Assembly (NCBI GenBank): GCA_013288545.1
Contig: JABDBR010000013.1
Location: forward strand, 1-37,694
Direction: 5' to 3'
Length of the DNA: 37,694 bases
DNA from: Nitrososphaerota archaeon
GTDB taxonomy: Archaea > Thermoproteota > Nitrososphaeria > Nitrososphaerales > Nitrosopumilaceae
Each line of letters begins with the position of its first letter. The stretch's first letter is position 1. Below, piece after piece: positions 2,700 to 22,653 of this stretch. The notes under the pieces were generated by a model that was given only the letters and a program-made list of their open reading frames with translations, was not told the origin of the DNA and did no database searches. The translations under genes were made by a program, and so were the position numbers.

Positions 2700-2768
2700 T
2701 GACAAATTTGTCAATGTTATTGACAAATTTGTACATGAACCGGACAAAAATGTACGCGTAGATTAACT
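2700..2768 (+). promoter_or_regulatory. Three 21-bp-spaced operators plus TATA-like box, promoter of the 2791 operon
   Basis: Twelve-bp sites TGACAAATTTGT (2700), TGACAAATTTGT (2721) and GGACAAAAATGT (2742) begin exactly 21 bp apart. The first extends to the perfect 14-bp palindrome TGACAAATTTGTCA. A TATA-like ATTAACT begins at 2762, 20 bp after the start of the last site, and the ATG at 2791 lies 29 nt after it, which fits a leaderless mRNA. Confidence 0.75.
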
Positions 2769-2790
2769 ATGTATAGGAAATAGCATAGAT

Positions 2791-3006
2791 ATGGAGTATA
2801 CGTTTGAAAACAGAAATCACTTTAACATGGGAAAACAACTAGTTGAAAAATTACTATTTCTGTCGCGTATTGATGGCTACATAGACGGTGCACATCAGCA
2901 AGGAAACAAACAGGCAGAACTGAGCCTGCAAATACTTCGAGCAGTAGAGAAAAAGAACACAAGTATGTTACAGGACTTTCTTGTAGCCGACAAAAATACT
3001 GCCTGA
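2791..3006 (+). CDS. Small helical protein, paralogue of the protein at 3385
   Basis: This is a 71-residue soluble protein, predicted mostly helical, of unknown function. It shares the pattern NHF...(Q)..KL.FLS..D..I..AH..GNKQAE..L.IL.AVE with the protein at 3385, so the two arose by duplication. It has no Cys, signal peptide or membrane segment. It is the first gene of a four-gene set (2791, 3033, 3385, 3602) read from the operator-array promoter just upstream. The start ATG is where a leaderless transcript from that promoter would begin. The GNKQAE core is the most conserved part between the copies and probably the functional centre. Confidence 0.7.
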   Translation: MEYTFENRNHFNMGKQLVEKLLFLSRIDGYIDGAHQQGNKQAELSLQILRAVEKKNTSMLQDFLVADKNTA

Positions 3007-3032
3007 CCATCAAGAAAAGGAGATACCAAATA

Positions 3033-3350
3033 ATGAGCCTGAGAATAATAACATCACTGAAGCGAAAAGATTCTGAGATTTTTGGAATAGGTATTAATGA
3101 ATATGGAAAAAATTCTTATCTTGATTTAAAAGATGTGTATGAAAACCAGGCTAGAATTTTTGATGACATCAAGCATGGAAAAAAAGATAAATCAGAAAAA
3201 CCCATTTACGTACTTTGGACTGATGAGGAATTTGGATATTTTATGGTACATGTAGATAGAAAAGATGACAGATATGAATTGCATTCTAGAACTGGAAACA
3301 TTGATCAGTTACTTGCCAGTCTTCCTGATTACAAGGAGCATGTCAGTTGA
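3033..3350 (+). CDS. Small hypothetical protein, second gene of small-protein operon
   Basis: This is a 105-residue protein I do not recognise. It is rich in Lys, Asp and Tyr, looks soluble and alpha/beta, and has no Cys, signal or membrane segment. A strong Shine-Dalgarno sequence AAAGGAGAT (3016-3024) sits 8 nt before the ATG, as expected for an internal operon gene, whereas the first gene appears leaderless. It lies 26 bp after the 2791 gene and is flanked by two paralogous small proteins, so it may work with them. The function is unknown. Confidence 0.7.
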   Translation: MSLRIITSLKRKDSEIFGIGINEYGKNSYLDLKDVYENQARIFDDIKHGKKDKSEKPIYVLWTDEEFGYFMVHVDRKDDRYELHSRTGNIDQLLASLPDYKEHVS

Positions 3351-3384
3351 TCTACCTTAAGTGTAATGGTAACATGAAATACAT

Positions 3385-3600
3385 ATGACAAATAATTCAC
3401 AAAATGAAAATCACTTCAAGGCTGCAAATCAAGTTATAAAAAAACTTGAGTTTCTATCGCATGTTGATAAAAATATTTCTGATGCACATGATAATGGAAA
3501 CAAACAGGCGGAGATGACATTGAATATACTCAAAGCCGTTGAACGGAGATATACTGATTCAATGAAATGCTTTCTTATTGCTGAAGCCGGTATGAGTTAA
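3385..3600 (+). CDS. Small helical protein, paralogue of the protein at 2791
   Basis: A 71-residue protein aligning end to end with the 2791 product: NHF near the N-terminus, KL.FLS, the AH..GNKQAE core, L.IL.AVER, and FL.AE near the end. The length is the same, which supports a true duplicated gene pair rather than chance open frames. The start ATG has no clear Shine-Dalgarno. The stop at 3600 is one base before the start of the next gene at 3602, so the two are probably co-translated. The function is unknown. Confidence 0.7.
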   Translation: MTNNSQNENHFKAANQVIKKLEFLSHVDKNISDAHDNGNKQAEMTLNILKAVERRYTDSMKCFLIAEAGMS

Positions 3601-3601
3601 A

Positions 3602-3760
3602 ATGATAAAAAAATTTTTGCGCGCATTTGCGGGTGATGGTAAAAGCGATGAGCATACAGTACAGGTCGACTCGGAGGAAATGAAAGAAGAAACTCATGAG
3701 TTGGAACAAGTAGAACAAGATGAACAAGAAGAGGCCAGGGAGATAGAAGATCAAGAATGA
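3602..3760 (+). CDS. Tiny acidic protein, last gene of small-protein operon
   Basis: A 52-residue frame with a short basic, hydrophobic start (MIKKFLRAF) followed by a strongly acidic Glu/Gln-rich tail predicted to be a charged helix. It starts one base after the stop of the preceding gene, which is tight coupling typical of an operon. No domain was recognised. Low complexity makes annotation by homology hard; the best support for its being real is the one-base spacing. Confidence 0.5.
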   Translation: MIKKFLRAFAGDGKSDEHTVQVDSEEMKEETHELEQVEQDEQEEAREIEDQE

Positions 3761-3824
3761 TGTTGTATCATTAAACACTGGTTATGGCGTTTAAGAAAAA
3801 TTCTATCTACTTGATTTCAAGTTA

Positions 3825-3872
3825 GTACAGATCAGTCCATGTAACTAACATGAATGTACGCGCGGCTTAATA
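3825..3872 (+). promoter_or_regulatory. Two 21-bp-spaced operators plus TATA box, promoter of winged-helix gene
   Basis: Sites GTACAGATCAGT (3825) and TAACATGAATGT (3846) are 21 bp apart. CTTAATA begins at 3866, 20 bp after the start of the last site. The stretch GCGCGGCTTAATAG is shared exactly with the promoter at 14852. Transcription would start near 3895, giving a leader of about 39 nt before ATG 3934. Confidence 0.65.
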
Positions 3873-3933
3873 GTAAAGATGACCGGTTAAATATGTGAAA
3901 ACTACCATGTCGCAAGCTGGAGACTTGTAAGGT

Positions 3934-4221
3934 ATGTCAAAACAACAATACCGATCAAAAATAGGCATAATTTCAGAGATTTTGGGTGCAGCAATGGATG
4001 GCGGTAAGGATGGAGCGATGATCTCTTCAATATCTAGAAGAACAAATCTATCACACTATGCATTAACTGAAAACTGTCAAAAGTTGATAGATGCAGGAAT
4101 GGTACAATCCACAAATAATGCTAGGAATCATATTTTTGTTGTTACCGAAAAAGGAATACGCTTTTTCCAAGAGTTACAAAAATTCATAGAAACTGCCCGG
4201 TTAGTACAATTGAGATTTTAA
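3934..4221 (+). CDS. Winged helix-turn-helix regulator (HTH_45-like)
   Basis: A 95-residue protein with the layout of archaeal PF14947-type winged helices. Helix 1 is RSKIGIISEILGAA. The helix-turn-helix covers residues ~25-50 (ISSISRRTNLSHYALTENC). Helix 3 is KLIDAGMVQ. The wing runs ARNHIFVVTEKGIRFF, and a C-terminal helix may dimerise. It is expected to bind DNA in the cytoplasm. Its promoter carries two of the same 21-bp-spaced sites found before the surface-protein genes, so it may be autoregulated and is a candidate regulator of the group; this is inference. It has its own promoter, separate from the small-protein operon. Confidence 0.85.
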   Translation: MSKQQYRSKIGIISEILGAAMDGGKDGAMISSISRRTNLSHYALTENCQKLIDAGMVQSTNNARNHIFVVTEKGIRFFQELQKFIETARLVQLRF

Positions 4222-4251
4222 ACTGCTGATAACGTTTTTCACAGATATTGT

Positions 4252-4611
4252 TTACAGTTTATCGCTAAAGTGTCCAGTATATTTATCCACATTATCTTGA
4301 ACAGATGATGATTTCTTCTCATGCTTGTCTCCGTATTTGTGGATGCGCCTGAACATTTTCTTCTCATGCTCTTTTCTTGAGTGGTGTAGTCTATCTGCTT
4401 CATATATGAATTCCTTCCCGCATTCTGTGCACTTGATTATTTCATGATGATGTTCATGGCGTGCATGGTTTATCAGATCTTCATATTTTGAAAACTTTGA
4501 CTTGCATTTGTCACATTTGAATTTTTTCCAAAAAAGATTCATGTTCGCTTTAAATGATGTTACAGAGATAAGAATGTTCCATCTTTTGTAAAAAAAGGTT
4601 TCATGTACCAT
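4252..4611 (-). CDS. Two-finger C2H2 zinc-finger protein
   Basis: Two C2H2 fingers are visible. The first is CDKC, 12 residues, then H and a second His (HARHEHH); the second is CTEC, 12 residues, HSRKEH. A Lys/His-rich tail follows. Short C2H2 proteins like this are common in Thaumarchaeota and are presumed to bind nucleic acid. The start is uncertain: TTG 4620, ATG 4611 or ATG 4542 (MNLFWKKFKC) are in frame, and the conserved part begins at 4542. The promoter on the minus strand (4691-4738) has the 21-bp-spaced operators of the neighbouring surface genes, so it may be co-regulated with them. Confidence 0.75.
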   Translation of the reverse strand: MVHETFFYKRWNILISVTSFKANMNLFWKKFKCDKCKSKFSKYEDLINHARHEHHHEIIKCTECGKEFIYEADRLHHSRKEHEKKMFRRIHKYGDKHEKKSSSVQDNVDKYTGHFSDKL

Positions 4612-4690
4612 ATGTGACAAGTAATACCCTATGTATTACACGTCACATAATGGTCTGGAGATGTGATGTAATACAATTCTTGAAACAAAT

Positions 4691-4738
4691 TAATAAACTG
4701 AGTTTACATTTGTGTCAATTTTATGTACATTTTTGTAC
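4691..4738 (-). promoter_or_regulatory. Two 21-bp-spaced operators plus TATA box for the C2H2 gene (minus strand)
   Basis: Read on the minus strand, GTACAAAAATGT (plus 4727-4738) and TGACACAAATGT (plus 4706-4717) start 21 bp apart. TTTATTA (plus 4691-4697) begins 20 bp after the start of the second site. The arrangement is the mirror image of the S-layer promoter at 8694, including ATTGACACAA before the TATA box. The rest of the 345-bp gap between 4611 and 4957 shows no gene. Confidence 0.65.
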
Positions 4739-4861
4739 GTCAAGATTATAAGAAATTATAAAATAATTTATCTCAGTCAAGGGTCGGCCGCTTGTGAATA
4801 TGTGCGTCAACTGGTCATCATCCCCCTTGACTATACAAATATTACAAAAATGATTCATATC

Positions 4862-4930
4862 TTACAGATCAGTTTATGATCTTGACAAATTTGTATGTGG
4901 ACCGTACACAAATGTAAGCGCGCCTTAATA
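4862..4930 (+). promoter_or_regulatory. Three 21-bp-spaced operators plus TATA box, promoter of the seven-module DUF3494 gene
   Basis: Sites TTACAGATCAGT (4862), TGACAAATTTGT (4883) and GTACACAAATGT (4904) start exactly 21 bp apart. CTTAATA begins at 4924, 20 bp after the start of the third. ATG 4957 lies 33 nt after the TATA box, consistent with a nearly leaderless transcript. Confidence 0.75.
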
Positions 4931-4956
4931 GCAAATCTCTCATCAATGAACTATCG

Positions 4957-7900
4957 ATGACTAAAATTAACATCAAGAATTATTTTGTTATTTCAATACT
5001 GATACTTTCAGCTTCAAGCCTGGTACAAAACAATGTCTTTGGAGACAGCACTGGCAATTTCGGAATACTTGCTAGCACATATACAAACACATCACCTGGA
5101 ACTTCAATTGCTGGAGACCTTGGATATACAACAGGACCGGTAGTAATGCCTTCAATTTCTGGCAGTACTCACGTAGCGAATTCTGTATATTCACAGGCAG
5201 GAATCTCACAAAACACTGCAACATCTTTTGCAAATTCCCAAGTCTGTACAACCAACCTTGGCACCACAGTTGACTTGTCACAAGTACATGGTGGAATTTA
5301 CACACCAGGCGTTTACTGTACCACAGGCGCTGCATCAATTGGAGCAGCAGGAATAACACTATCAGGTAACGGCATTTACATTTTCAAAATTGATGGCACA
5401 CTTACAACTGCAGCCAATTCTGTTGTTACACTAAACGGCGCACAAGCGTCTACAATATCATGGGTACCAACCAGTGCAACAACACTTGGTGCAAATACCA
5501 AGTTTGCAGGAATCATACTTGATGCATCAGGTGTCACAATGGGAAATAATGTAAACATGATTGGTAAAGTCCTAGCATTTGGAGGAACTGTTTCTACTAA
5601 TGCTGATACTATTACCGTCCCATCAAGTGCAATGGCAGATACAGTATCTGGAAATTTCCAATGCACTACCACATTTCCAACTGGAACAATTGACTTGGGA
5701 TCAAATGTACAATATCCAGACAAAGTATATCCACCAGGTGTATACTGCATTGACGGTACAGCAAACATTGGCTCAGGCCCAATAACACTAACAGGCAACG
5801 GAGCACACATCTTCAAAATTGGTGGCGCACTAAATCAAGCAGCAAATACTGATGTCATACTAGCTAATGGAGCTCAAGTTTCTGGAGTGATCTGGGTACC
5901 AACAGGTCCAATAACAATTGGTGCAAACAGCCATCTCATTGGAACTGTAAATGGCGCACCAATCACAATTGGCGCAAATTCTGATATCAACGGCATTGGT
6001 CCTGCAAAGACCATGGCAGATAAAATCCAAGGAAATTTCCAGTGCACTGTAACATTCCCAACTGGAACAATTGATCTAGGATCAAACGTACAATATCCAG
6101 ACAAAGTATACCCACCAGGTGTATACTGCATTGACGGTATAGCAAACATCGGTTCAGGTCCAATCACACTTTCAGGTAATGGGGCACACATATTCAACAT
6201 CAATGGTGCACTAAATCAAGCAGCAAATACTGATGTCATACTAACTAATGGCGCACAAGGCTCCAGCATAATATGGGTACCAACAGGTCCAACAACAATT
6301 GGTGCAAACAGTCATCTCATCGGAACTGTAAACGGAGCGCCAATTACAATTGGAGATAATTCTGATATCAACGGTATAGGTCCGACAAAAATAATGGCAG
6401 ACGCAATCTCTGGCAATTTTGGAATTCTTGCTAGCACATATACGAACACATCACCTGGAACTTCAATTGCAGGAGATCTTGGTTACATTAGAGGACCACA
6501 AGTAGCAGCTAGTGTTAATGGTATTGTCCATGTATCTGACTCGATATACTCACAAGCTGGAATTGCACAAAATGCAGCAACATCTTTTGCAAACTCTCAA
6601 GTGTGCACAAGCAACCTTCCTGGCATTGCAGTTGATTTGTCACAAGTGAATGGTGGAGTATACACACCTGGTGTTTACTGTACTACCGGCGCTGTATCAA
6701 TTGGAGCAGCAGGAATAACACTTTCAGGTGATGGCATTTACATTTTCAAAATTGATGGCGCACTTACAACAGTAGCCAATTCTAGTGTCATGCTAACTAA
6801 TGGTGCAAAGGCCTCCATAGTATTTTGGGTGCCAACTGCTGCCACAACACTTGGAGCAAATACACAATTTGCAGGAACTATACTTGACGCATCAGGTGTT
6901 ACAATCAGTAACAATGTAAGCGTATTAGGTAAAGTCTTGGCATTTGGCGGTACAGTCTCAACATCTGCTGATACCATTACAGTTCCATTGTTTGAACTAG
7001 CAGATGCAACATCTGGAACTCTCCCGTGCACTGTAACATTTCCAACTGGAACAATTGACTTGGGATCAAATGTACAATATCCAGCCAAAGTATACCCACC
7101 AGGTGTATACTGCATTGACGGCGCAGCAAACATCGGTTCAGGTCCAATAACACTATCAGGCAACGGAGCACACATCTTCAAGATTAACGGCGCACTAAAT
7201 CAAGCAGCAAACACTGATGTCATATTATCTAACGGTGCATTGTCTTCAAGTGTAATTTGGATACCAACCGGACCGATAACCATTGGTGCAAATAGTAATC
7301 TCATCGGAACTGTAAACGGCGCACCAATTACAATCGGCGCAAATTCTGATATCAACGGCGTCGGTCCAAAAATAATGGCAGATGCACTATCTGGCAACTT
7401 TGGAATTCTTGCTAGTACCTATACAAATACATCACCTGGAACTTCAATTGCAGGAGATGTTGGTTATACAACGGGACCTCTAGTAATAGCAACAGTTGAT
7501 GGTGTCGTTCACAAATCTGACTCTGTATATTCACAGGCAGGAATAGCACAAAACACTGCAACATCCTTTGCAAACTCTCAAGTGTGCACAACCAATCTTG
7601 GCACTTCAGTTAATCTATCGTTAGTTCATGGCGGAGTATACACACCAGGTGTTTATTGTATCACTGGTGCAGCTTCTATAGGTCCAAGCGGAATAACACT
7701 TTCAGGTGATGGCATTTACATTTTCAAAATTGGTGGCGCATTAACAACTGCTGCTAACTCTGTTGTTACTCTAAACGGTGCTCAGGCATCCAACATATCA
7801 TGGGTACCAACTGGTGCTACAACACTTGGTGCAAATACACAGTTTGCAGGAATAATACTTGACGCATCAGGTGTAACAATGAGCAGCAATGTTAGCATGA

Positions 7901-8508
7901 CCGGCAGGGTCTTGGCATTTGGAGGAACCGTTTCTACATCTGCTGATACTATCATCGTTCCATCATATGCCATGGCAGATACAACTTCAGGTAATCTACC
8001 ATGTACAGTTACATTTCCAACTGGAACAATTGATCTAGGATCAAACGTACAATATCCAGACAAAGTATACCCACCAGGAGTCTACTGCATTGATGGTGCA
8101 GCAAACATCGGCTCAGGCCCAATAACACTAACAGGCAGCGGAGCACACATCTTCAAGATTAACGGCGCACTAAATCAAGCAGCAAATACTGATGTCATAC
8201 TAGCTGACGGCGCTCAAGTTTCAAGCATAGTCTGGGTACCGACAGGCCCCATAACAATTGGTGCAAACAGTCATCTCATAGGAACTGTAAATGGTGCACC
8301 AATCACAATTGGCGCAAATTCTGATATCAACGGCATCGGTCCAGCAAAGACAATGGCAGATGCAACTGCCTCAGGCCCATTATACGCAACAGGTGACACA
8401 ACTGTTCCAGAGTTTGGTACTGTCGCTGCTATGATATTGGCAATAGCAATTGTATCTATAATTGCAGTTTCTGCAAGAACAAAACTAGGAATAATGTCAA
8501 AGTACTAG
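4957..8508 (+). CDS. Seven-module DUF3494 surface protein with PEFG-CTERM
   Basis: An 1183-residue secreted protein. Residues 1-30 are a signal peptide. Then come DUF3494 modules in the order long-short-short-long-short-long-short: long at 35-233, short 234-360, short 361-487, long 488-688, short 689-814, long 815-1013, short 1014 to about 1140. Long modules start FGILASTYTNTSPGT and end with FGGTVST.ADTI. Short modules start F/LPCT or FQCT, lack the N-terminal strands and end INGIGP.. MAD. Each module has a Cys pair. The last 36 residues are a PEFG-CTERM tail. The protein is expected to be anchored outside the cell as a long solenoid stalk or adhesin; ice binding is possible but unproven. 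Module DNA is nearly identical between copies and with the 2-1291 gene, so gene conversion or module gain and loss is likely. It is driven by the operator array at 4862. Confidence 0.92.
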   Translation: MTKINIKNYFVISILILSASSLVQNNVFGDSTGNFGILASTYTNTSPGTSIAGDLGYTTGPVVMPSISGSTHVANSVYSQAGISQNTATSFANSQVCTTNLGTTVDLSQVHGGIYTPGVYCTTGAASIGAAGITLSGNGIYIFKIDGTLTTAANSVVTLNGAQASTISWVPTSATTLGANTKFAGIILDASGVTMGNNVNMIGKVLAFGGTVSTNADTITVPSSAMADTVSGNFQCTTTFPTGTIDLGSNVQYPDKVYPPGVYCIDGTANIGSGPITLTGNGAHIFKIGGALNQAANTDVILANGAQVSGVIWVPTGPITIGANSHLIGTVNGAPITIGANSDINGIGPAKTMADKIQGNFQCTVTFPTGTIDLGSNVQYPDKVYPPGVYCIDGIANIGSGPITLSGNGAHIFNINGALNQAANTDVILTNGAQGSSIIWVPTGPTTIGANSHLIGTVNGAPITIGDNSDINGIGPTKIMADAISGNFGILASTYTNTSPGTSIAGDLGYIRGPQVAASVNGIVHVSDSIYSQAGIAQNAATSFANSQVCTSNLPGIAVDLSQVNGGVYTPGVYCTTGAVSIGAAGITLSGDGIYIFKIDGALTTVANSSVMLTNGAKASIVFWVPTAATTLGANTQFAGTILDASGVTISNNVSVLGKVLAFGGTVSTSADTITVPLFELADATSGTLPCTVTFPTGTIDLGSNVQYPAKVYPPGVYCIDGAANIGSGPITLSGNGAHIFKINGALNQAANTDVILSNGALSSSVIWIPTGPITIGANSNLIGTVNGAPITIGANSDINGVGPKIMADALSGNFGILASTYTNTSPGTSIAGDVGYTTGPLVIATVDGVVHKSDSVYSQAGIAQNTATSFANSQVCTTNLGTSVNLSLVHGGVYTPGVYCITGAASIGPSGITLSGDGIYIFKIGGALTTAANSVVTLNGAQASNISWVPTGATTLGANTQFAGIILDASGVTMSSNVSMTGRVLAFGGTVSTSADTIIVPSYAMADTTSGNLPCTVTFPTGTIDLGSNVQYPDKVYPPGVYCIDGAANIGSGPITLTGSGAHIFKINGALNQAANTDVILADGAQVSSIVWVPTGPITIGANSHLIGTVNGAPITIGANSDINGIGPAKTMADATASGPLYATGDTTVPEFGTVAAMILAIAIVSIIAVSARTKLGIMSKY

Positions 8509-8514
8509 ATAATA

Positions 8515-8521
8515 TTTTTTT
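8515..8521 (+). terminator. T-run terminator after the DUF3494 gene
   Basis: A run of seven T lies 7 bp after the stop codon, with no hairpin needed, as is usual for archaeal termination. Confidence 0.4.
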
Positions 8522-8693
8522 GAACAAAAAAACTAGAACCTACATTCAAAAACTATTTTCATTTGTACCTTGGATAAATTTTAATTCTTGTTATACTAGA
8601 TTGCCATTTTAATTTTATAATTTTCAAGTATCATTATTTCATTTTCTTAATTTCATTCTACGAAATACACTGGCAATTTTTGAAAATATCTAG

Positions 8694-8762
8694 TGACAGA
8701 TTAGTACATAATGATGACAAATCTGTAAATAAAATTGACACAAGTGTTCGCAGTACTTATTA
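8694..8762 (+). promoter_or_regulatory. Three 21-bp-spaced operators plus TATA box, promoter of the S-layer gene
   Basis: Sites TGACAGATTAGT (8694), TGACAAATCTGT (8715) and TGACACAAGTGT (8736) start exactly 21 bp apart. CTTATTA begins at 8756, 20 bp after the start of the last site. Transcription would start near 8785, leaving a leader of about 58 nt before ATG 8843, longer than for the other genes of the group. The remainder of the 8509-8842 gap is AT-rich with no gene seen. Confidence 0.75.
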
Positions 8763-8842
8763 ATTTTTCAATAATAGTTTGCATCAAGTGATAATTTGAA
8801 TACATACACTCGATTGACTAGGGGATTCTAATTTCGATAACC

Positions 8843-11800
8843 ATGAAAAACATATTACAAAAAATAACCAGTCTTACACTGTTGACAATACTTGTTGCCA
8901 GCAGCGCAGTAGTAGGTTTGCCAAATGCACTTCCACCTGTACAAGCAGCAACAAACTCAAATCTATTTGTCTCTGCAGAAAATTCTCAATTCAACAACTA
9001 TTTTGCAGGTCCCCAAGTAATCCAAGTTGTTATCGCTGATCCTGACATAAACAGATTAGACCAATCTTATGGAGAACCTGTTGTAACAGTCAACGGTAAG
9101 AGACTGAGAATGGCCCAAGGCACAGATGGAAATTGGTATGCATACTTTGCAGACCGAAATCAAGCAATTGCTGCTGGTAACACTGCCCAATTATCTGGTA
9201 AAGGTCTCAACTTTGGTGGTTTTTGTAGTCCAACTGGTGCATTTACACCAAAAGCTGGTGTAAGTTTCGCTGATACCAAGGGATTCACACTAGCAAGAGG
9301 AGGATATGGTTCAACCAGTCATCTTAACGGTACAATAACTTCAGGTGGCCTGCCAGCATGTACAGCTACAACAACTGGCCTAACTACAACCCAGATGGAA
9401 CACGTGGTAAGACAAAACAAGACTCTGAACACAAATTCATTAGGATTTGGAGCAGGTGCAAACTATGTCAATACATGGCCAATCATACAGCTATATGATT
9501 TCTCAGCAATTCCAACTGTAGTAACAGTTGACTATCAAAAGAACGGTGGCGACCAAATCGTCAACTTGACCTTTGATAGAATTCCACAAGGTCTTATCAC
9601 TACTACTCTAGACAGAAACGCTTATCCTCAAAATTCTCAAGTCTTTGTCCAAGTAAATGATCCACAACTTAACGTAGACCCAACAGAAGATGATTCGTGG
9701 ACATGGGGTACAAGTGCTAACAATAATACTTTGTACTATGAAGCATTTACAAGAAACGGCGCAGCTGATGCAGATGGTACTGCTGGTATGCAGAACCTAG
9801 TCGGTAACTTGACTACCTTGATGTTTAACCATAACGGAAAACTTACATTCAATCCATCAGCACAGGGCGTTCGAGTTGCTGACTTTCAAGCAAACGGTAA
9901 GATAATCTATACTGGTACTCAAAGAGGCGACCCAACCACAGTTAGAACAAGTTCAATTGGTCTTGGCTCGCAGCCTCTCACACTCATTGAATCTGGTGGT
10001 GTAAACACTGGTGTCTTTGTCAACTGGGACGGCGGTAAAAAATCAGAAATCATAACAGTGGATTCGCCAACAATTCGAGGCCAGTCTGCAGTTGTAAGAT
10101 ACAATGATATTTCTTCAAGTATCGTAGGTGGTTTTACATTTGCTTCATTGACACAGACTGCACAAAATAACACCTGGGCATCTGGCCAAAGAATTCCAGT
10201 TACTCTAACTGATAGTGATGACAACAAGAACGGAAAAATTAGTGAGCGAATGTTCCTCTGGGATCCATCTTACAAGAGAAGTACAGCAATGGTAATTGGA
10301 ACTCCATTTACCTTGTCTACTGGAACTAGCGGTGCAGGTACAGAAGTAGCAGCCCTTGAAGCAGCAAAAGTTTCCACCTCAAACGGTCATGGAACAGTTA
10401 CTTTTGGATCTGGTTTTAATGCAACAGCAACAAACCTACAAGAAGATGAAGCATTCAGTGCAAGACCAATCTTCAACTTTACTGGTTCAGCATCTAATGT
10501 AACATCTATTAGCACCAACTCAACTGGAACTGGTGGTACTTTTGCTATCCTAGCTAGTACCTATACAAATACAATAACACCAACTAATGTTACCGGAAAT
10601 GTTGGCTATACTACAGGACCTGCAGTAGCACCTCGTGTTACTTCTGGTAAAATTTACGTAAACGGTGGTAACGGTACTGTACAATTTGCAGCTGCATCTG
10701 CAAATCAGACTGCTACATTGGCTACCTTGAATGCGTTATCATGTACATTCACATTCCCAACTGGTGCAATTGATCTAGGATCCAATACATTCTACCCATC
10801 AAAGACATATCCACCTGGAGTCTATTGTGTTACAGGCGCTTTGAGCATAGGATCAGGTCCTATCACTCTTAGCGGCAATGGAAATCATGTATTCAGGCCT
10901 ACTGGTGCATTAACCCAAGCAGCATCTACGACTGTGCAACTATCCGGTGGAGCACTTGCTGCGGATGTATTTTGGACACCAGGTGCTGCAACAACACTTG
11001 GAGCTAACGATGTCTTCATTGGAACTGTCATTGACCCATCCGGCATCACAGTAGGCGCTAATACAGTATGGACAGGCAGAGCCCTAGATTTCCAAACTAC
11101 AGTTACAACTGGCACAAATGATGTTATCCAACTACCATCGCCTTTGACAAGCTCATCTCACTCATTTACTCCAACAGCAACAATCAACAGCCTCGGAACA
11201 GCACTATTTGTGGACTTGAAGACAACCATGAATACCCTGCTAAAGACGATTCACAATACAAATCGTACAAATAACGCAGAAGGATTCAAGGGCTTCAACT
11301 TTATCAATTATGACTTGAGATCATTTTCAAGTCTTAACGGTGCAACTGGCGGTTCAATTTCTAACATTAACATATATGTTGTATACAACAATGCTGGAAC
11401 TGCACTATCAACAGGTGGTTTGGCAAATGCTGGCTCATCTGTAATCTCTATTGCAAACTCTACTAATCTACAAGACTTCATCAACCTTAATGTCACAAGC
11501 AGCAAGGTAACAAATCCATCTTTGATAAATGAAAACTTGTTTAGCAATGTTGCAAAGACTGCATCAATCGGATTGCTATTTGTCTTTACTACCAGCAATG
11601 GTTCCATAGTATTATCATCAAGTGGTGAACCGATGGTAACTGACTTTTTCTCCGTAGGTCTAATCGGTGACGGTACACAAAGCGCACAAAGAATCAACAA
11701 CGGCATCTACAGATTTGAACTTGAAGAGACAGGTGACAACACTGGAGTCTTTACAGGTACAAACCAGTTTGTAATGCTCAACCAGCTCAATGTCTTTGAC

Positions 11801-14794
11801 ACAAATACCTACGCCAACTTGAGACCAATCCAGCATGATGTGTTCTTCCCAGCTATCCAAGACATGCTCCAGGCAGAAGCACGTGCTCCACAAGTAACAT
11901 ACTTTGACCTCGGACAAGACGGTGTAAACACACAGATATCTGCACAACAAGATATTCCAACTCACACTGGTGTCATTTCATTTGATAGCAAGACATACAA
12001 GATTGGTGACACTGTGACAATTACACTTAACGACGCAGACCTTAATGTTAACAACGATCTCATTGATATCTACACAGCAGTCAAGCCGACAGGTGCTTCA
12101 CTCAATGTTGTTCAAGACAATGCAACTGACACAGTAGGTAAAGCAGGTCTAGGACAGACAAGTGATGGTAGAGCATTTGGTAGACTCGTAGATGTACAAT
12201 TTGGTCAAGCAAACATTAGATGGTCTGATAGTAACTTTAACAGTAAATTTACACCAAGTAACACTGGTGCATGCTTTGGTGGTTCAACACTTGCAGATGA
12301 CAACAATACAGCAACCACTGGCGGATTTGCATCAAGCTTATCTGCTACTGGTTTCTCACTAGTTGAGACTGGTCCATCAACAGGTATCTTCACTGGCAAC
12401 TTTGAAATCCCAGACCAATTGTGTCAGAATGGAATCGCTATTTCATCAGTAGGTCAGAACATCAAGGTCAACTATGTTGACTTCCGTGATGACTCTGGCA
12501 AACTCGTTGAAGTTTCCGACAATTCAGGCATCAGAGGTAACACAGGTTCAGTAAAATTAGACAAGGCAGTATATCCGGTACCATTTGGACAAATAATCTC
12601 TGGTACTACTGGTGACTTCCCAGTTCCAGCAAAATCTGTAACCAGCCAAACTGGTGTATTTCCAATGCATAGAGATCTAACTGGTAGTGGATTAACAGCA
12701 ACCAACACTCTGTCTAACGGTGACGTTCTAGTCCACATCAGAGTAAATGATCAAGACTTTAACACATCACCAGTGGGTACTGATAAAATCGCATTAGGTG
12801 TCAATGACAAGAACCATGGCCCAGTAGCTGTACAAATAACAAGACAAGGACAATCATTACTATTGGCAACAGCTGGAGGTCCGGCAGCATTCTCCGGTAC
12901 AATTGTTAACCTAAACGGTACAGCCATTCCTGCTACTGCAACAGGTACAACTGATCCATCTTGGGGTCCTGTGAGAGATCTTGGCCCGATGGTCGAGATT
13001 GCTCCGGATGCAGGAATCTTCCAAGCAGACTTGCCAATTAGATTCACTGATGGTCCTCAAGGTACTGACTGTCCAAAAGCAGAAACTCAATGGACTGCTA
13101 CTGATGGTACAACTGGTACAAAAGAATTGGACCGATTTCATACTATTCATACTGCTGCATCCTCAACAGGATTCTACTGTGTAAGACAAGGTGATGTTCT
13201 CACCGTAACCTACACAGACTTGAACGATGCATCAGGTCATACACAAACTGTCACAGATTCTTCAACATTTGACTTGAGAAACGGTGTACTACAATCAGAC
13301 AAGTCCGTATACATCATTGGCTCAGATATGATTCTCACACTCGTCGAACCAGACTTGAATCTTGATTCACAGACTGCTGAAACTATCCCACTAGATGTAA
13401 TCGAATGGGACTCACATGCCTTCAAGGGTACAATGGGATTACTTGGTGCACAATCTGCAGCATTTGATGCCAAGCCAGCTACATTTGTGGAGACAGGTAA
13501 AGACACAGGTATCTTCCAATCAGTAATTAAAGTTCCAAAACAATTAAACAATAACTTACTTGAAAGGGGAGAACAGATTCATCTAGAATATACTGACTGG
13601 GGTCCAGCAGGCTCTAAAGTAGTAGGTGCAAACAACCAAGATGTACAGTTGACCATCTACACATCAAACTTTGGCGCAACAGTTGAACTTGACCAAAAAG
13701 TGTACACATGGACTGACCGTGTCTACATTACCGTAGTAGCACCAGATCACAACTTTGATCCAAATCTGATAGATATCATTGGTGACAACGACGAAAACAA
13801 AGTAAGCGTTTCAACCCGAGGTAACAGCATCTCCAACTACAAGTTGGTAGAGACTGGAGTCGATACAGGTATCTTCACAGGTTATGTTATCCTAACAGGT
13901 AACACCAACGTCAAAGGCACCTCCGGTGTCGATGGCGCAGGTTTGAACCCAACAGGTTCAGGCCCAAGCGGAGTCGGTCCAACAGACGGCTTCCTACCTT
14001 CTGAAGAACAGGACGGTGTATCAGTATCGTTTGAATTCACAAGAGATCAAACAGTTACTGGTTCAGCACTCATCCGATGGAACATTGGTGAAATCAAATG
14101 GTTAGAAGCATCCTATCCAGCAAATGGACAGGGAGTATTGCAGATAGTTGACCCAGACATGAACCTTAATCCAAAGGCAGTCGACAAGTTCGACACCAAC
14201 GTATGGTCTGACTCTGATTCTGGTGGAATCAAACTCACCATGACAGAAACTGGCGAAGCAACAGGTATCTTCCAAGGTACAGTGTACTTTACCACTAACT
14301 TCCAGTCATCTGGAAACAGACTCCACGTAGCAGAAGGCGATACAGTTACAGGCGAATACAAGGACAGAACCTTGCCACCGCCATACACACCATCTGATCA
14401 ATTGAGATTGACCTCGACAACATTCATTGGTACAGTTGTGCCACCGCTTGAAAGAGCACCGGCATCAAACCCAAGAATCGTTGATTCGTTTGGCAATGCA
14501 ATTACTGGCGCAGTAAAATCAGGACAGCAGATACAAGTTACTGCTGACTTGACAAACGGTCAGGACAGAGATCAGCCATTTGCATACCTTGTACAAATAC
14601 AAGATGCTAACGGTGTTACAGTATCACTCTCTTGGATCACAGGTACATTGACTGCAGGTCAATCGTTAAATCCGGCACAATCTTGGACTCCTCAATCTTC
14701 TGGAACATACACTGCACAGACCTTTGTATGGCAGAGCATTGACAATCCAAACGCATTGTCACCGCCTTTAACAACTACAATAAATGTAGCATAG
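8843..14794 (+). CDS. S-layer-type giant surface protein with an internal DUF3494 domain
   Basis: A 1983-residue secreted protein with a signal peptide at residues 1-35 (ending VQAA). The body consists of repeated beta-sandwich units carrying two recurring motifs: DPDxN-like (ADPDINR, NDPQLN, NDADLN, NDQDFN, EPDLN, APDHN, DPDMN) and ETGxxTGIFxG-like (EETGDNTGVF, VETGPSTGIF, VETGKDTGIF, VETGVDTGIF, TETGEATGIF). This pattern matches the main S-layer proteins of ammonia-oxidising archaea. Residues ~567-766 form a complete DUF3494 domain (FAILASTYT to DVIQLPS) closely resembling the long modules of the neighbouring genes. The Asp-rich motifs suggest Ca2+ binding. There is no PEFG tail; the protein ends in TTTINVA. 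It probably forms the crystalline cell envelope. Whether it is the main S-layer subunit or a second paralogue cannot be decided here. Confidence 0.88.
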   Translation: MKNILQKITSLTLLTILVASSAVVGLPNALPPVQAATNSNLFVSAENSQFNNYFAGPQVIQVVIADPDINRLDQSYGEPVVTVNGKRLRMAQGTDGNWYAYFADRNQAIAAGNTAQLSGKGLNFGGFCSPTGAFTPKAGVSFADTKGFTLARGGYGSTSHLNGTITSGGLPACTATTTGLTTTQMEHVVRQNKTLNTNSLGFGAGANYVNTWPIIQLYDFSAIPTVVTVDYQKNGGDQIVNLTFDRIPQGLITTTLDRNAYPQNSQVFVQVNDPQLNVDPTEDDSWTWGTSANNNTLYYEAFTRNGAADADGTAGMQNLVGNLTTLMFNHNGKLTFNPSAQGVRVADFQANGKIIYTGTQRGDPTTVRTSSIGLGSQPLTLIESGGVNTGVFVNWDGGKKSEIITVDSPTIRGQSAVVRYNDISSSIVGGFTFASLTQTAQNNTWASGQRIPVTLTDSDDNKNGKISERMFLWDPSYKRSTAMVIGTPFTLSTGTSGAGTEVAALEAAKVSTSNGHGTVTFGSGFNATATNLQEDEAFSARPIFNFTGSASNVTSISTNSTGTGGTFAILASTYTNTITPTNVTGNVGYTTGPAVAPRVTSGKIYVNGGNGTVQFAAASANQTATLATLNALSCTFTFPTGAIDLGSNTFYPSKTYPPGVYCVTGALSIGSGPITLSGNGNHVFRPTGALTQAASTTVQLSGGALAADVFWTPGAATTLGANDVFIGTVIDPSGITVGANTVWTGRALDFQTTVTTGTNDVIQLPSPLTSSSHSFTPTATINSLGTALFVDLKTTMNTLLKTIHNTNRTNNAEGFKGFNFINYDLRSFSSLNGATGGSISNINIYVVYNNAGTALSTGGLANAGSSVISIANSTNLQDFINLNVTSSKVTNPSLINENLFSNVAKTASIGLLFVFTTSNGSIVLSSSGEPMVTDFFSVGLIGDGTQSAQRINNGIYRFELEETGDNTGVFTGTNQFVMLNQLNVFDTNTYANLRPIQHDVFFPAIQDMLQAEARAPQVTYFDLGQDGVNTQISAQQDIPTHTGVISFDSKTYKIGDTVTITLNDADLNVNNDLIDIYTAVKPTGASLNVVQDNATDTVGKAGLGQTSDGRAFGRLVDVQFGQANIRWSDSNFNSKFTPSNTGACFGGSTLADDNNTATTGGFASSLSATGFSLVETGPSTGIFTGNFEIPDQLCQNGIAISSVGQNIKVNYVDFRDDSGKLVEVSDNSGIRGNTGSVKLDKAVYPVPFGQIISGTTGDFPVPAKSVTSQTGVFPMHRDLTGSGLTATNTLSNGDVLVHIRVNDQDFNTSPVGTDKIALGVNDKNHGPVAVQITRQGQSLLLATAGGPAAFSGTIVNLNGTAIPATATGTTDPSWGPVRDLGPMVEIAPDAGIFQADLPIRFTDGPQGTDCPKAETQWTATDGTTGTKELDRFHTIHTAASSTGFYCVRQGDVLTVTYTDLNDASGHTQTVTDSSTFDLRNGVLQSDKSVYIIGSDMILTLVEPDLNLDSQTAETIPLDVIEWDSHAFKGTMGLLGAQSAAFDAKPATFVETGKDTGIFQSVIKVPKQLNNNLLERGEQIHLEYTDWGPAGSKVVGANNQDVQLTIYTSNFGATVELDQKVYTWTDRVYITVVAPDHNFDPNLIDIIGDNDENKVSVSTRGNSISNYKLVETGVDTGIFTGYVILTGNTNVKGTSGVDGAGLNPTGSGPSGVGPTDGFLPSEEQDGVSVSFEFTRDQTVTGSALIRWNIGEIKWLEASYPANGQGVLQIVDPDMNLNPKAVDKFDTNVWSDSDSGGIKLTMTETGEATGIFQGTVYFTTNFQSSGNRLHVAEGDTVTGEYKDRTLPPPYTPSDQLRLTSTTFIGTVVPPLERAPASNPRIVDSFGNAITGAVKSGQQIQVTADLTNGQDRDQPFAYLVQIQDANGVTVSLSWITGTLTAGQSLNPAQSWTPQSSGTYTAQTFVWQSIDNPNALSPPLTTTINVA

Positions 14795-14809
14795 ACTAGC
14801 AAAAAGTAA

Positions 14810-14815
14810 TTTTTT
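14810..14815 (+). terminator. T-run terminator after the S-layer gene
   Basis: Six T starting 15 bp after the stop codon, inside AAAAAGTAATTTTTTCTTA. Confidence 0.35.
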
Positions 14816-14851
14816 CTTATTTGAATTTAGATTTACCTTTCAAATATTATT

Positions 14852-14920
14852 TTACAGATCTGTCCATAATCCTGATGGAATGGTACTTGAACCGGACAAA
14901 AATGTAAGCGCGGCTTAATA
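14852..14920 (+). promoter_or_regulatory. Three 21-bp-spaced operators plus TATA box, promoter of the solo DUF3494 gene
   Basis: Sites TTACAGATCTGT (14852), a weak TGATGGAATGGT (14873) and GGACAAAAATGT (14894) fit the 21-bp spacing. CTTAATA begins at 14914, 20 bp after the start of the last site. The stretch TGAACCGGACAAAAATGTA is shared exactly with the promoter at 2700, and GCGCGGCTTAATAG with that at 3825. ATG 14946 is 32 nt downstream of the TATA box. Confidence 0.75.
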
Positions 14921-14945
14921 GCTCTGTGTATGCAATAGCCAGACA

Positions 14946-15776
14946 ATGACAAGAAACAACATACAAAACTATTTTGTAATGCTTGTACTGATAATTTCAG
15001 CCACAAGCATAGTACAAAGTAACGCTTTTGCAGCAAGCACTCCAAACCTTGGAACAGCCGGCAATTTTGCAGTCTTGGCTGGCTCTACTATCACTTGCAC
15101 CGGAGCCGGTGCCATTATTGGTGATATTGGAGTAAGCCCTGGTACTGCAATAGTATTGGGTGCTACTCCATGTACCGTAACTGGAACAATAAATCCAGGT
15201 GGTCCAGTAGCAGCTCATGCTCATGCTGATGCAGCTACCGCATTTACTAGTCTAAATGCAGCAACATGCACCACCACTGAACCAGCAGTTGCAGACATAG
15301 GTGGACAAACACTCACACCAGGAGTCTATTGTTTTCCATCATCGGCAGCTATAACTGGAAACCTTACTCTTAGTGGCAACGGAGTCTACATCTTCAAAAT
15401 AGGAAGTACACTCGTCACAGCAGCAGGTCCAGGTGCAAGCAACGTAGTCCTAACTAATGGAGCCTCGGCTTCAAATGTCTTTTGGGCAGTAGGCAGTTCC
15501 GCAACTCTTGGAACTGGCTCAGTTCTTAAAGGAACCATAATTGCTTTCACATCAATCACAGCTACCACCAATGCAGCGGTAGACGGTAGATTGCTTGCAA
15601 TAAATGGCGCAGTTACATTAGACACCAACCAAATTTCAGTAGTATCTACTGGTGGTGGTAACGGCGGCAATGGTACAGGAGACCACGATAAAGGCGACAA
15701 TGGTAAAGGCGACCACGATAAAGGTGAACATGATGAAGGTCATCATGATAAAGACACCAAATCTGATCGAAACTAA
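14946..15776 (+). CDS. Single-domain DUF3494 (ice-binding-like) secreted protein with Asp/His/Lys-rich tail
   Basis: A 276-residue protein with a signal peptide at residues 1-29 that resembles that of the 4957 protein. One canonical DUF3494 domain follows (about 36-235), starting FAVLAGSTITCTGAG and IIGDIGVSPGTA and ending GRLLAINGAVTLDTNQIS. This N-terminal part is closer to bacterial ice-binding proteins and adhesins than the neighbouring modules are. After a Gly-rich linker the last ~30 residues are a hydrophilic repeat of D/E-H-D-K-G units with seven His, which could bind metal ions or interact with the S-layer. No PEFG tail is present, so the protein is released or held non-covalently. 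It shares the 21-bp operator promoter with the S-layer gene. Ice binding is not demonstrable from sequence. Confidence 0.9.
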   Translation: MTRNNIQNYFVMLVLIISATSIVQSNAFAASTPNLGTAGNFAVLAGSTITCTGAGAIIGDIGVSPGTAIVLGATPCTVTGTINPGGPVAAHAHADAATAFTSLNAATCTTTEPAVADIGGQTLTPGVYCFPSSAAITGNLTLSGNGVYIFKIGSTLVTAAGPGASNVVLTNGASASNVFWAVGSSATLGTGSVLKGTIIAFTSITATTNAAVDGRLLAINGAVTLDTNQISVVSTGGGNGGNGTGDHDKGDNGKGDHDKGEHDEGHHDKDTKSDRN

Positions 15777-15961: not shown

Positions 15962-16246
15962 TTAGTCACTTGCAAGTGTCGATGCAAATATTCTGCCTTT
16001 TTCACTCAAGCCTACATTAATCTTAGAGTCATCAACTGTTGATTTGACAAAGCCTTTCTTCTCCAGCCATACGATATGCTTTGCAAGTCTTGCATAATTC
16101 AGATTTGCACCAAGTGACAAGCTAGTCTTTGCATCAGGGCCATTATCTACCATGATTTTTAATATTCGAGACAGAGTTTTCATGCTTGGCTCAAAGTTTT
16201 GTGATAGTTTTTTATCTCGAATAATATCACTAGTTCTAGAACGCAT
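15962..16246 (-). CDS. Winged-helix regulator, left copy of an inverted duplicate
   Basis: A small winged-helix DNA-binding protein of about 94 residues. Helices include MKTLSRILKIMVDNG, the recognition region SLSLGANLNYARLAKHIVWLEKKG, and a wing STVDDSKINVGLSEKG. From KKLSQNFEPS to the last few residues it is identical to the protein at 18322, and the DNA is 234/235 identical in inverted orientation. I chose ATG 16246 because AAGGGGTG sits just upstream and the TATA-like CATAAATAAT (16299-16308) would put the transcript start near 16277. Starts at 16285 or 16297 are also open. It is probably a regulator linked to the adjacent two-component genes. Confidence 0.75.
   Translation of the reverse strand: MRSRTSDIIRDKKLSQNFEPSMKTLSRILKIMVDNGPDAKTSLSLGANLNYARLAKHIVWLEKKGFVKSTVDDSKINVGLSEKGRIFASTLASD
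15979..16213. repeat. 235-bp inverted repeat, left arm
   Basis: This stretch is the reverse complement of 18409-18643 with one difference (16207 against 18415). It covers the C-terminal ~78 codons of the winged-helix gene. The 2195-bp interval between the arms holds a winged-helix gene, a histidine kinase and a response regulator. Confidence 0.95.
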
Positions 16247-16313
16247 TGTAATTACACCCCTTGCTTGTATTGTACATTGATACATGTGCGGTACCATATT
16301 ATTTATGATAGAC

Positions 16314-16380
16314 TGACAAAAAAGTCAGGTGGATTAATAATCTCGTAATGTATTCTTGCACTTGTAAATGCGGCTTAATT
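16314..16380 (+). promoter_or_regulatory. Promoter-like element related to the 21-bp operator promoters, without an obvious gene
   Basis: TGACAAAAAAGT at 16314 and CTTGTAAATGCGGCTTAAT at 16361-16379 resemble the operator site and the GCGGCTTAAT box of the arrays at 3825 and 14852. The box to TGT spacing is kept, but the upstream sites are out of 21-bp register. No convincing plus-strand gene follows (only an 11-codon frame at 16433), so it could give an RNA antisense to the gene at 16455, or be a relic. Confidence 0.35.
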
Positions 16381-16454
16381 GTGTGTGATACAATTAATTG
16401 ATAATGTGAAAAACTGCGCCTGTCTAATTGACTATGTCAAGGATCGGGATATGG

Positions 16455-16757
16455 TTAGATGTCATTTGAAAGCGTTGATGCAAATTCTTTACCTTTCTTG
16501 GTCAAACCAACTTTAATCCTAGATTTATCAATTGTTGATTCAACCAGACCTTTTTTCTCCATCCATACAATGCACTTTGCAAGTCTAGTATAATTTACAT
16601 GGGTATCAATTGATAAAGTGGTCTTTGCCTCTGCTCCCTTGTCTGTTATTGTTTTTAGTATGCGTAACAGAGTTTTTGTACTTGGTTTAAAATCAGGCTC
16701 TAATTCCTTATTCTTGATAATATCCATTGGTTTGGAACCCACCACCATATTGCCCAC
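16455..16757 (-). CDS. Winged-helix regulator, diverged third paralogue
   Basis: A 100-residue protein with the same winged-helix layout as the 15962 and 18322 products: KTLLRILKTITDKGAEAKTT, VNYTRLAKCIVWMEKKGLV, STIDKSRIKVGLTKKG. It is clearly diverged from the other two at the protein level, so it is an older duplicate. A TATA-like AACATATAA on the minus strand (about 16783-16791) fits a leaderless start at ATG 16757. It is divergent from the histidine kinase gene and separated from it by 206 bp of AT-rich sequence. It is probably a DNA-binding regulator; the targets are unknown. Confidence 0.75.
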   Translation of the reverse strand: MGNMVVGSKPMDIIKNKELEPDFKPSTKTLLRILKTITDKGAEAKTTLSIDTHVNYTRLAKCIVWMEKKGLVESTIDKSRIKVGLTKKGKEFASTLSNDI

Positions 16758-16963: not shown

Positions 16964-17857
16964 ATGCTAGTAGACAATAATGTGATATTCTACCTGTTAA
17001 TTGTATGGGCAGTTATAGTTACAATATTGTTGATTAGAATGAGACAGAAACACATCAAGCACATCAATGAATTAAGGGGAGATCAAAAACGACAGGCAGA
17101 ACAAACTGATGCAAAAGAAAAACGACAAGCAGAACAAACAGACGCAAAAGAAGTGTCAGAAAAATTAAAAGGAATTGCAAAAGATGAGTTTTCTGCCATG
17201 ATTACTCATGAATTAAACACACCGCTTGTACCAATACTAGGATACTGCAAGATGCTAAAAACATCAATGCTTGGTAGGATTGATCCAGAACAGTTGGAAG
17301 CAATTGAAATAATAGAAAAAAATGCCAAAAGACTTGAGGCTTTAATAGCTGACATTATGGATGTAAGAAAGCTTGATCTTAACAAGCTTAGATTCAAAAT
17401 AGATGATCTATCTATAGGTGCATTTTTCTCTAATATTGATTCAGATTATAAAAAGATCTTGGATGGTAAAAAATGTCAGTTTGTAATAGATCCATATAAC
17501 AAGGATCTAGTCATCAAAACAGACAAAGCAAGATTAAGACAAGTTTTTGATAACCTGATAAGCAATTCGATAAAGTTTGTTCCGGAAAGCAATGGGAAAA
17601 TTGAGATTGGCTGCATGAAAGAAAATGGCAACCTTGTTTTTTATGTAAAAGATAATGGGATTGGAATATCACAAGATAAACAAAAAGAACTTTTCCAAAA
17701 ATTCTATCAAATTGATACGTCGGAAAGAAGATCCATAGGTGGAACTGGGCTTGGCCTTGCAATTTCAAAAGGCATAGTAGAGAAACTTGGTGGAATTATC
17801 TCGGTTAAAAGTGATGGAAAAACAGAAACTACTTTTTATATGAAATTTCCGTTATGA
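16964..17857 (+). CDS. Membrane histidine kinase
   Basis: A 297-residue sensor kinase. One membrane helix spans residues ~8-25. A charged coiled coil follows, containing two exact 11-residue KRQAEQTDAKE repeats (nt 17087-17152). Then comes a HisKA domain with phospho-acceptor His in ITHELNTPLVPI, and a HATPase domain with an N box (DNLISNSIKF), a G1 box (DNGIGIS), an F region (FQKFYQ) and a G2 box (GGTGLGLAI). There is no extracellular sensor or PAS domain, so the input may be membrane state or a partner protein. It lies 79 bp before the response regulator and probably shares its transcript. It is the centre of the 2.2-kb segment enclosed by the inverted repeats. Confidence 0.92.
   Translation: MLVDNNVIFYLLIVWAVIVTILLIRMRQKHIKHINELRGDQKRQAEQTDAKEKRQAEQTDAKEVSEKLKGIAKDEFSAMITHELNTPLVPILGYCKMLKTSMLGRIDPEQLEAIEIIEKNAKRLEALIADIMDVRKLDLNKLRFKIDDLSIGAFFSNIDSDYKKILDGKKCQFVIDPYNKDLVIKTDKARLRQVFDNLISNSIKFVPESNGKIEIGCMKENGNLVFYVKDNGIGISQDKQKELFQKFYQIDTSERRSIGGTGLGLAISKGIVEKLGGIISVKSDGKTETTFYMKFPL
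17087..17152 (+). repeat. Two tandem 33-bp units in the kinase linker
   Basis: Two in-frame copies encode KRQAEQTDAKE twice and differ only at silent positions. The unit length of 11 residues (three helical turns) suits a coiled-coil linker whose length could vary between strains. Confidence 0.85.
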
Positions 17858-17936: not shown

Positions 17937-18311
17937 ATGAAAATTCTTCTCATTGACGATAATAGTGATATTACAAAAATGCTTCAAAAGTATATGACAA
18001 TCAAGGGTCACTCATGTACTATAGCCAATACTGGCCAGAGCGGTCTTGATCTCATTAATAATCAGACATTTGATGTAGTAATACTTGACATTGCAATGCC
18101 TACATTTTCAGGCAATGATGTTATAGATGTGTTACATAAAAGTGGAAAAATAAAAAATCAAAATATAGTAACATTGACAGCATCCATACTGACTGGTGAT
18201 ATAGAATCCGTGCTCAAAAACAAAGGTGTTCATTCATGTTTGAAAAAACCAATCGATCCAGATGTTCTCTTAGATCATATACAACAGTTTGGAAATAAAA
18301 ATAAAGCATGA
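17937..18311 (+). CDS. Receiver-only response regulator (CheY-like)
   Basis: A 124-residue single receiver domain. Acidic residues IDDN near the N-terminus, the phospho-acceptor Asp in VVILDIAMP (residue ~52), Thr in TLTAS and the Lys in CLKKPID (residue ~105) are all present, so it should be phosphorylatable. There is no output domain, as is usual for archaeal regulators. The partner is probably the kinase just upstream. The next gene, a winged-helix protein, starts 10 bp after its stop with GAGG before the ATG, so kinase, receiver and winged helix look like a three-gene unit in which the winged helix could supply the DNA-binding output. Confidence 0.92.
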   Translation: MKILLIDDNSDITKMLQKYMTIKGHSCTIANTGQSGLDLINNQTFDVVILDIAMPTFSGNDVIDVLHKSGKIKNQNIVTLTASILTGDIESVLKNKGVHSCLKKPIDPDVLLDHIQQFGNKNKA

Positions 18312-20655: not shown

Positions 20656-20773
20656 AACATGTAAGTGTGGTGATAGCAATTTCACCCAAATTTTATTTCA
20701 TACATGAAAAATGAGGATATCTGAATTTTATTTGCTGTGATACTGTATTATATTGGTAGTTTGCAGTAAATGC

Positions 20774-22589: not shown

Positions 22590-22615
22590 GCTGAGATACA
22601 ATAATCTAGCGCTAC

Positions 22616-22632: not shown

Positions 22633-22653
22633 ATACCAAATTCAAGTGATATC

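Follow-up and report, generated by a model that had tools for sequence, protein, structure and literature searches.

The window, i.e., the whole analyzed stretch of 37,694 nt, comes from a genome of the genus Nitrosotalea (family Nitrosopumilaceae) and contains six arrays of a short site (core ACA-N4-TGT), repeated every 21 bp in front of TATA-like boxes. First, a three-copy array (2700-2753, plus strand), followed by a conserved element (2754-2761) and a TATA box (2762-2768), serves small-protein genes starting at 2791; the protein encoded at 2791-3006 (plus strand) has 71 aa and no Pfam match, and similar-looking 71-aa proteins without Pfam matches are encoded at 3385-3600 and in another locus (L036:12898). 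Second, a two-copy array (3825-3857, plus strand; element 3858-3865, TATA 3866-3872) serves a winged-helix (wHTH) gene of HTH_45 family B (3934-4221, plus strand), a group that does not track the arrays. Third, a two-copy array on the minus strand (4706-4738, TATA 4691-4697) serves the gene of a C2H2-like protein (4252-4620, minus strand), whose score of 24.9 bits is just under the Pfam cut-off of 25.2; a second conserved TATA (ATTATAAG) lies on its plus side. Fourth, a three-copy array (4862-4915, plus strand; element 4916-4923, TATA 4924-4930) precedes an ATG at 4957, 33 nt after the TATA start and thus of the leaderless type, which opens the gene of an ice-binding-like protein with seven PF11999 stretches (4957-8508, plus strand). 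Fifth, a three-copy array (8694-8747, plus strand; TATA 8756-8762) serves the gene of a 1983-aa protein with one PF11999 domain (8843-14794, plus strand). Finally, an array with a degenerate middle copy at 14873 (14852-14905, plus strand; element 14906-14913, TATA 14914-14920) precedes an ice-binding-like PF11999 gene with its ATG at 14946 (14946-15776, plus strand). The large proteins encoded behind the arrays had been taken for S-layer proteins; this assignment found no support, as Pfam places them in the ice-binding-like family PF11999, and S-layer proteins were rejected as array targets, none of the targets being shown to be one.

The second TATA across the 4706-4738 array (GATTATAAGAAAT, region 4733-4860) is conserved in two other loci (L036 and L028), with no clear ORF. 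In the window it is followed by a GTCAAGGG/CCCTTGAC stem, perhaps a small RNA; folding of the possible RNA (4762-4860) was only slightly better than that of shuffled sequences (z -1.39), and neither Rfam matches nor tRNAs were found in the window.

Beyond the last array lie three genes of another winged-helix group, subfamily A, identified by profile search, which we propose as the regulator subfamily. Two of them are on the minus strand (15965-16240 and 16461-16736). The third (18322-18657, plus strand; 111 aa, structure modelled) directly follows genes for a histidine kinase with HisKA and HATPase_c domains (16964-17857, plus strand) and a receiver-only response regulator (17937-18311, plus strand), both assigned by Pfam. 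A stretch at 16310-16390 resembles a decayed array, of which the TGTAAATGCGGCTTAATTG end survives. Farther on, a BNR-repeat protein (20753-22180) and a radical SAM protein with a CofH-type C-terminus (22537-23751) are encoded, and no array was found at either.

All six arrays lie where they had been predicted, with all coordinates in agreement. Among the 16 sites claimed, 15 fit ACA-N4-TGT at five or six of the six core bases; the exception is 14873 (TGATGGAATGGT), which matches at three. A YTTAWTA-like box starts 20 bp past the start of the last copy in all six promoters (ATTAACT at 2762). The window holds 35 exact ACA-N4-TGT sites, which form five pairs at 21 bp and two at 42 bp, whereas 200 dinucleotide shuffles gave 0.005 pairs at 21 bp (maximum one); with up to two mismatches allowed, there were 15 pairs at 21 bp versus 4.8 expected. 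In the source genome (an assembly of 1.386 Mb, 85% complete) nine exact 21-bp pairs were found, five in the window and four on contig C48, versus one for the reversed pattern. In a set of 62 loci (669,905 bp, mostly picked for bearing arrays) 62 pairs were found at 21 bp, 13 at 42 bp and three at 63 bp, with at most two at any other distance from 11 to 90 bp, and three control patterns over the same loci gave at most four pairs at any distance. Together, the shuffles, the reversed pattern and the control patterns rule out a chance origin; the array is confirmed as real, and it is larger than first described.

The distribution of arrays was analyzed in 37 genomes of the genus and 250 Nitrosopumilaceae genomes from 22 genera, and that of subfamily A also in 400 genomes sampled from the order. 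The array model (R1) has 49 positions and 36 rows; alignment A1 leaves out, by judgement, eight of 43 candidate arrays and takes in one more from the window (14873-14921, entered two bases out of register). Sixteen of the 37 genus genomes contain the exact pattern, many of them at control level, with G000 (9) and CRAIB_MAG107 (G019; 10) standing out; R1 matches below 1e-4 were found in 11 of the 37. At 1e-3, R1 revealed arrays in 29 of the 250 family genomes and seven of the 22 genera, and, among the matches listed (150 of 154, under stricter filters), in up to 22 places per genome. As the training rows came from seven genus genomes, the recovery of those seven is partly by construction, and 22 of the 29 array genomes are independent of training. 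The window array at 8694 scores 0.0018, above the threshold, and was still counted. A genome scan for spaced pairs had been suggested as a way to refute the original prediction; the pairs proved to be more frequent than in shuffles and controls and conserved in relatives. The idea of a shared regulon with helically phased operators survived this check and is strongly supported.

The clearest group of genes behind arrays encodes PF11999 proteins. Arrays precede 31 of the 33 testable PF11999 genes, a set that leaves out three frames running off a contig end, and 22 of the 24 outside the training genomes. By genome, the counts are 8/9 in Ca. Nitrosotenuis chungbukensis MY2 (G215; including the array C21:6937, which is beyond the family-scan list), 7/8 in G222, 4/4 in G235 and in G000, 3/3 in G019, 2/2 in G075 and in G018, and 1/1 in G237. 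Each of the two arrayless genes (G215 C21:3060 and G222 1258549) comes immediately after a gene with an array, whose transcript it may share. PF11999 exceeds the cut-off in eight of the 250 family genomes, all of them array genomes; the match in a ninth genome (G013) falls below the cut-off, and R1 found no array there at 1e-3. Judged from their promoters, ice-binding-like surface proteins are the main predicted targets of the arrays. They are not the sole use of the arrays, because in 21 of the 29 array genomes no PF11999 gene exceeds the cut-off. Other genes behind arrays encode ferritin-like, Dps-like, Usp and SPFH/Band 7 proteins, a 4Fe-4S protein, HTH_45 proteins of families B and C, a DUF922-like protein (a weak match, E 0.0014) and many proteins without Pfam matches. 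In MY2 an array also precedes a collagen-like GXY-repeat protein (C21:1509, minus strand), which starts 207 nt after the TATA and is cut by the contig end. The regulon would thus serve the envelope and stress response, with ice-binding-like, collagen-like, ferritin/Dps-like, Usp and SPFH proteins.

The consensus of 112 arrays is ACAAATTTGTCCATAAAACTG for the distal 21-mer and ACACAAATGT-AAGCGCGG-CTTAATA for the proximal end. Two copies are most common (67 arrays), followed by three (32), four (7), one (5) and seven (1). The last copy ends 8 bp ahead of the TATA (site-N8-TATA in 75 elements). In 67 of these 75 elements, whose selection relied on neither the distal site nor the GC-rich element, a second site is found at -21, against a background of 4.7%. 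The sites are therefore placed immediately upstream of BRE/TATA, as in archaeal upstream activators of the EarA, TFB-RF1 and Ptr2 type, and a conserved AAGCGYGG element sits at the position recognized by TFB. The first ATG opening at least 60 codons falls 26-34 nt past the TATA start in 54 of 98 arrays versus 16 of 345 shifted anchors, the remaining arrays with such an ATG showing other distances; as this spacing is that of leaderless genes, the array promoters appear to be mostly leaderless.

The register in which the sites would be read is less clear-cut. The consensus includes GTCCAT-AAA-ACTGAC, an imperfect dyad with its centre in the spacer. At copies -21 (p 0.002) and -42 (p 0.049) the outer half-sites are retained as this centre would predict, in favour of TGT-N11-ACA; the bias is reversed at -63 (p 0.039) and absent at -84 (p 0.51), and a search for dyad covariation was negative for both possible centres (50 arrays, 119 sites, 71 site pairs). 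On this mixed evidence TGT-N11-ACA seems a somewhat better-supported dimer site than ACA-N4-TGT, which may be the junction between sites. Dimers would then occupy successive 17-bp TGT-N11-ACA pseudo-palindromes spaced 21 bp apart. Since 21 bp is two helical turns, they would lie on one face of the DNA and be able to touch, and cooperative binding to the phased sites is plausible.

Taken as a whole, the data are best explained, and in our judgement probably, by arrays that are operators of the small HTH_45 wHTH proteins of subfamily A (about 85-120 aa), in a system that activates genes under envelope stress. Given a last copy 8 bp from the TATA and AAGCGYGG at the TFB position, the bound protein would most likely aid TFB/TBP loading. 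The same protein might instead repress, induction being derepression: the regulatory sign is not readable from sequence, and MarR-like proteins, which subfamily A resembles in part, often repress. However, the sites are placed upstream of the promoter, at a constant distance from the TATA, and run outward from there, an arrangement described for archaeal activators, while archaeal repressors sit over the promoter or downstream of it (PMC5512572); we consider repression unlikely. Another reading gives promoter specificity to an alternative TFB that recognizes AAGCGYGG, the arrays being auxiliary. GCG is present at positions 3-5 of this element in 82 of the 112 array promoters versus four of 64 other leaderless-type promoters, a count biased by a scan model that includes the element, and in G075 the best-scoring array is followed, 282 nt downstream, by the start of a TFB gene (region L144:14132-15367), with a short zinc-ribbon-like frame between them. 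As the -21 site persists in the 67 of 75 elements picked without AAGCGYGG, an auxiliary role of the arrays is in our view unlikely.

Several lines of evidence connect the arrays with subfamily A. The three proteins from the window pass the Pfam HTH_45 (PF14947) cut-off of 25.5 bits with 30.2, 33.4 and 32.9 bits. Relatives (E<=1e-8) of a wHTH protein encoded next to the C48 arrays (L010:3169-3450) were found in 10 of the 37 genus genomes, with an array-adjacent member in eight of the 10. A profile (A2) of 18 subfamily A proteins, one of which (L092, G032) had been picked for adjoining an array, gave 58 matches in 30 of the 250 family genomes. Subfamily A and the arrays share 25 genomes (Fisher 1.9e-25, a value overstated since the genomes share ancestry) and occupy the same seven of 22 genera. 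For 30 of the 58 matches, in 19 genomes, an array starts on the same strand 12-87 bp past the end of the protein match (from which, rather than from the gene end, distances were measured), as compared with the 150 of 154 array matches listed. For the other 28, the three window genes among them, the next 150 bp downstream on that strand contain no listed array; the arrays nearest to the window genes are 1052, 1545 and 3478 bp away. Two more wHTH-array neighbours were found by eye (G023:C13 and G028:C173), the latter with a period of 20 bp; this array (L091:2749-2850, ACA-N3-TGT) lies next to a paralogue of subfamily A whose recognition helix has changed, and the last site at L074 (G023:C95) is likewise 9 bp long. 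Sequence comparison gives good support to both the regulon and its wHTH subfamily.

The overlap is incomplete on both sides. Arrays without subfamily A were found in G014 (70% complete), G018 (85%), G144 (85%) and G070 (99%), and subfamily A without model-detected arrays in G012, G020, G193, G223 and G230. In G012 the gene is present and no array was seen. In G020 a truncated subfamily A gene (L090:4099-4272) lies between apparent decayed arrays, and these remnants suggest loss of the system in one species. At the order level, subfamily A was found in 30 of the 400 sampled genomes, 27 of them from this family and three, with lower scores (58-77 bits), from another; outside the family it is rare. 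A GTACCG/CGGTAC/CCGTAC motif was observed about 50-70 nt before the aligned start of nine of 12 subfamily A genes examined; motifs of this type occur in the window (16190-16320) and at L010, L026, L027, L034, L091, L033 and L071.

The original prediction had pointed to the 3934 protein, and a family B regulator (3934-4221) controlled from its own array has some evidence in its favour. Family B genes are array targets in the window, G018 and G235; in G018 such a gene is divergent from an ice-binding gene, and the closest relative of the 3934 protein (81% identity, the next at about 66% or less) comes from this same genome, which has arrays and no detected subfamily A. However, relatives of the protein (E<=1e-8) were found in 35 of the 37 genus genomes, including all 19 near-complete ones, with or without arrays, versus arrays in 11 of the 37. 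Subfamily A matches the array distribution and position far better, so that family B is disfavoured as the main regulator and this reading is distinctly improbable. Family C wHTH proteins, found in 19 of the 37 genus genomes, do not track the arrays and were also rejected.

The model of the 18322-18657 protein (mean pLDDT 77.8, pTM 0.68, 17-row alignment) shows a winged helix with a long N-terminal helix. Foldseek returned MarR proteins with the best E-value (4.7e-4) but at rmsd of at least 10, along with AspA (4rs8, TMt 0.69, rmsd 2.0; 5k5q, E 0.0012) and Sso10a-2 (TMt 0.65, rmsd about 2.5). The subfamily A sequence profile likewise reaches MarR proteins, AspA (E 0.0024-0.0032) and Sso10a-2 (0.53), and in both searches MarR proteins equal or beat AspA by E-value. 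Centromere-like or chromatin nucleation sites, suggested by this resemblance in profile and fold to AspA, which spreads from a 23-bp palindrome (PMC5120986), are a highly improbable role for arrays whose distance from the TATA box is constant and which, among the matches listed, occur at as many as 22 places in a genome.

By analogy, the proposed operators of subfamily A appear to resemble those of BarR in their phased sites and those of EarA in having activator sites at the BRE, and the protein to resemble AspA and Sso10a in fold. We know of no operator arrays for Sso10a. Lrp-type proteins combine an HTH with a RAM domain, an architecture absent from the 111-aa protein, which has only Pfam HTH_45 and is modelled as one winged helix plus an N-terminal helix. 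BarR of the Sulfolobales, an Lrp-type regulator, has several semipalindromic sites next to the regulator gene, at regular intervals that in two species amount to about two helical turns, and can activate its neighbour; it differs in acting as an octamer with wrapped DNA, in a divergent layout and in a single intergenic region, with no envelope regulon in the account of PMC10201364 as far as covered here. EarA of Methanococcus maripaludis, which controls a surface structure and as an activator presumably recruits TFB, acts from several short sites directly upstream of the BRE; these are four 6-bp sites at one operon, and neither 21-bp phasing nor a regulator-array-target module is described in the sections of PMC5512572 covered. 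AspA of pNOB8 is a small archaeal wHTH dimer that nucleates on a palindrome and spreads along DNA, but it is a plasmid partition protein acting with ParB/ParA from one nucleation site, not promoter arrays, according to PMC5120986. Sso10a, also a small archaeal wHTH protein and a suspected sequence-specific factor, differs in its chromatin-type DNA-binding modes, as presented in PMC4941522. No description of this regulon was found in the open-licence literature (subscription journals being mostly outside it), including the covered part of a paper on HTH_45 (PMC9239043).

The kinase-receiver-wHTH order is found in three genomes, that of the window, Ca. N. bavarica SBT1 (G001) and G075 (kinases 77-86% and receivers 74% identical), and in the latter two the cassette is followed by an array and its target. 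Related kinase and receiver genes in G235 are each preceded by an array. The wHTH gene thus shows conserved linkage to a kinase and a receiver, as do two-component output proteins; such neighbours are absent from most subfamily A genes at the loci searched. Among thaumarchaeal response regulators 77% are reported to be receiver-only proteins, and in archaea receiver genes are often found next to HTH genes, with no interaction shown in the sections of PMC5847659 covered; the cassette in the window is one concrete case of this neighbourhood. The linked histidine kinase and receiver protein would feed a signal into the regulon.

Expression data are available for MY2, in which 139 genes are up at 1x MWM. 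Most genes with higher expression at 1x than at 10x MWM are surface-associated, ice-binding proteins are highly expressed at 1x (five of eight among the top 100 transcripts), as are LPXTG-anchored collagen-like adhesins, and S-layer genes are unchanged, as reported in PMC13037477; its main text contains no word beginning with "regulator". Both low-salinity classes carry arrays in MY2 (eight of nine ice-binding genes and one collagen-like gene), the match being by gene class only. The regulon is probably induced by low salinity. A fuller scenario, offered tentatively, is that the kinase and the receiver-only protein pass a low-salinity signal to the wHTH protein, which could form a phased filament on the 21-bp arrays and load TFB at leaderless surface-gene promoters; the wHTH gene, array and target might constitute a self-contained duplicating module, whose paralogues alter the operator length (as in the 20-bp period, ACA-N3-TGT, of G028:C173) and the recognition helix.

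In some ammonia-oxidizing archaea, many surface and stress genes thus share one promoter signal that recurs every 21 letters, and a single family of small DNA-binding proteins probably reads it. As strong expression in very dilute water is reported for genes of these kinds, the array system may be how these cells defend their envelope. The finding points to an envelope role for ice-binding-like proteins in these archaea, which PMC13037477 also proposes. A precise promoter code, tied to a candidate regulator and to published low-salinity expression in a cultured strain, MY2, makes the system testable now.
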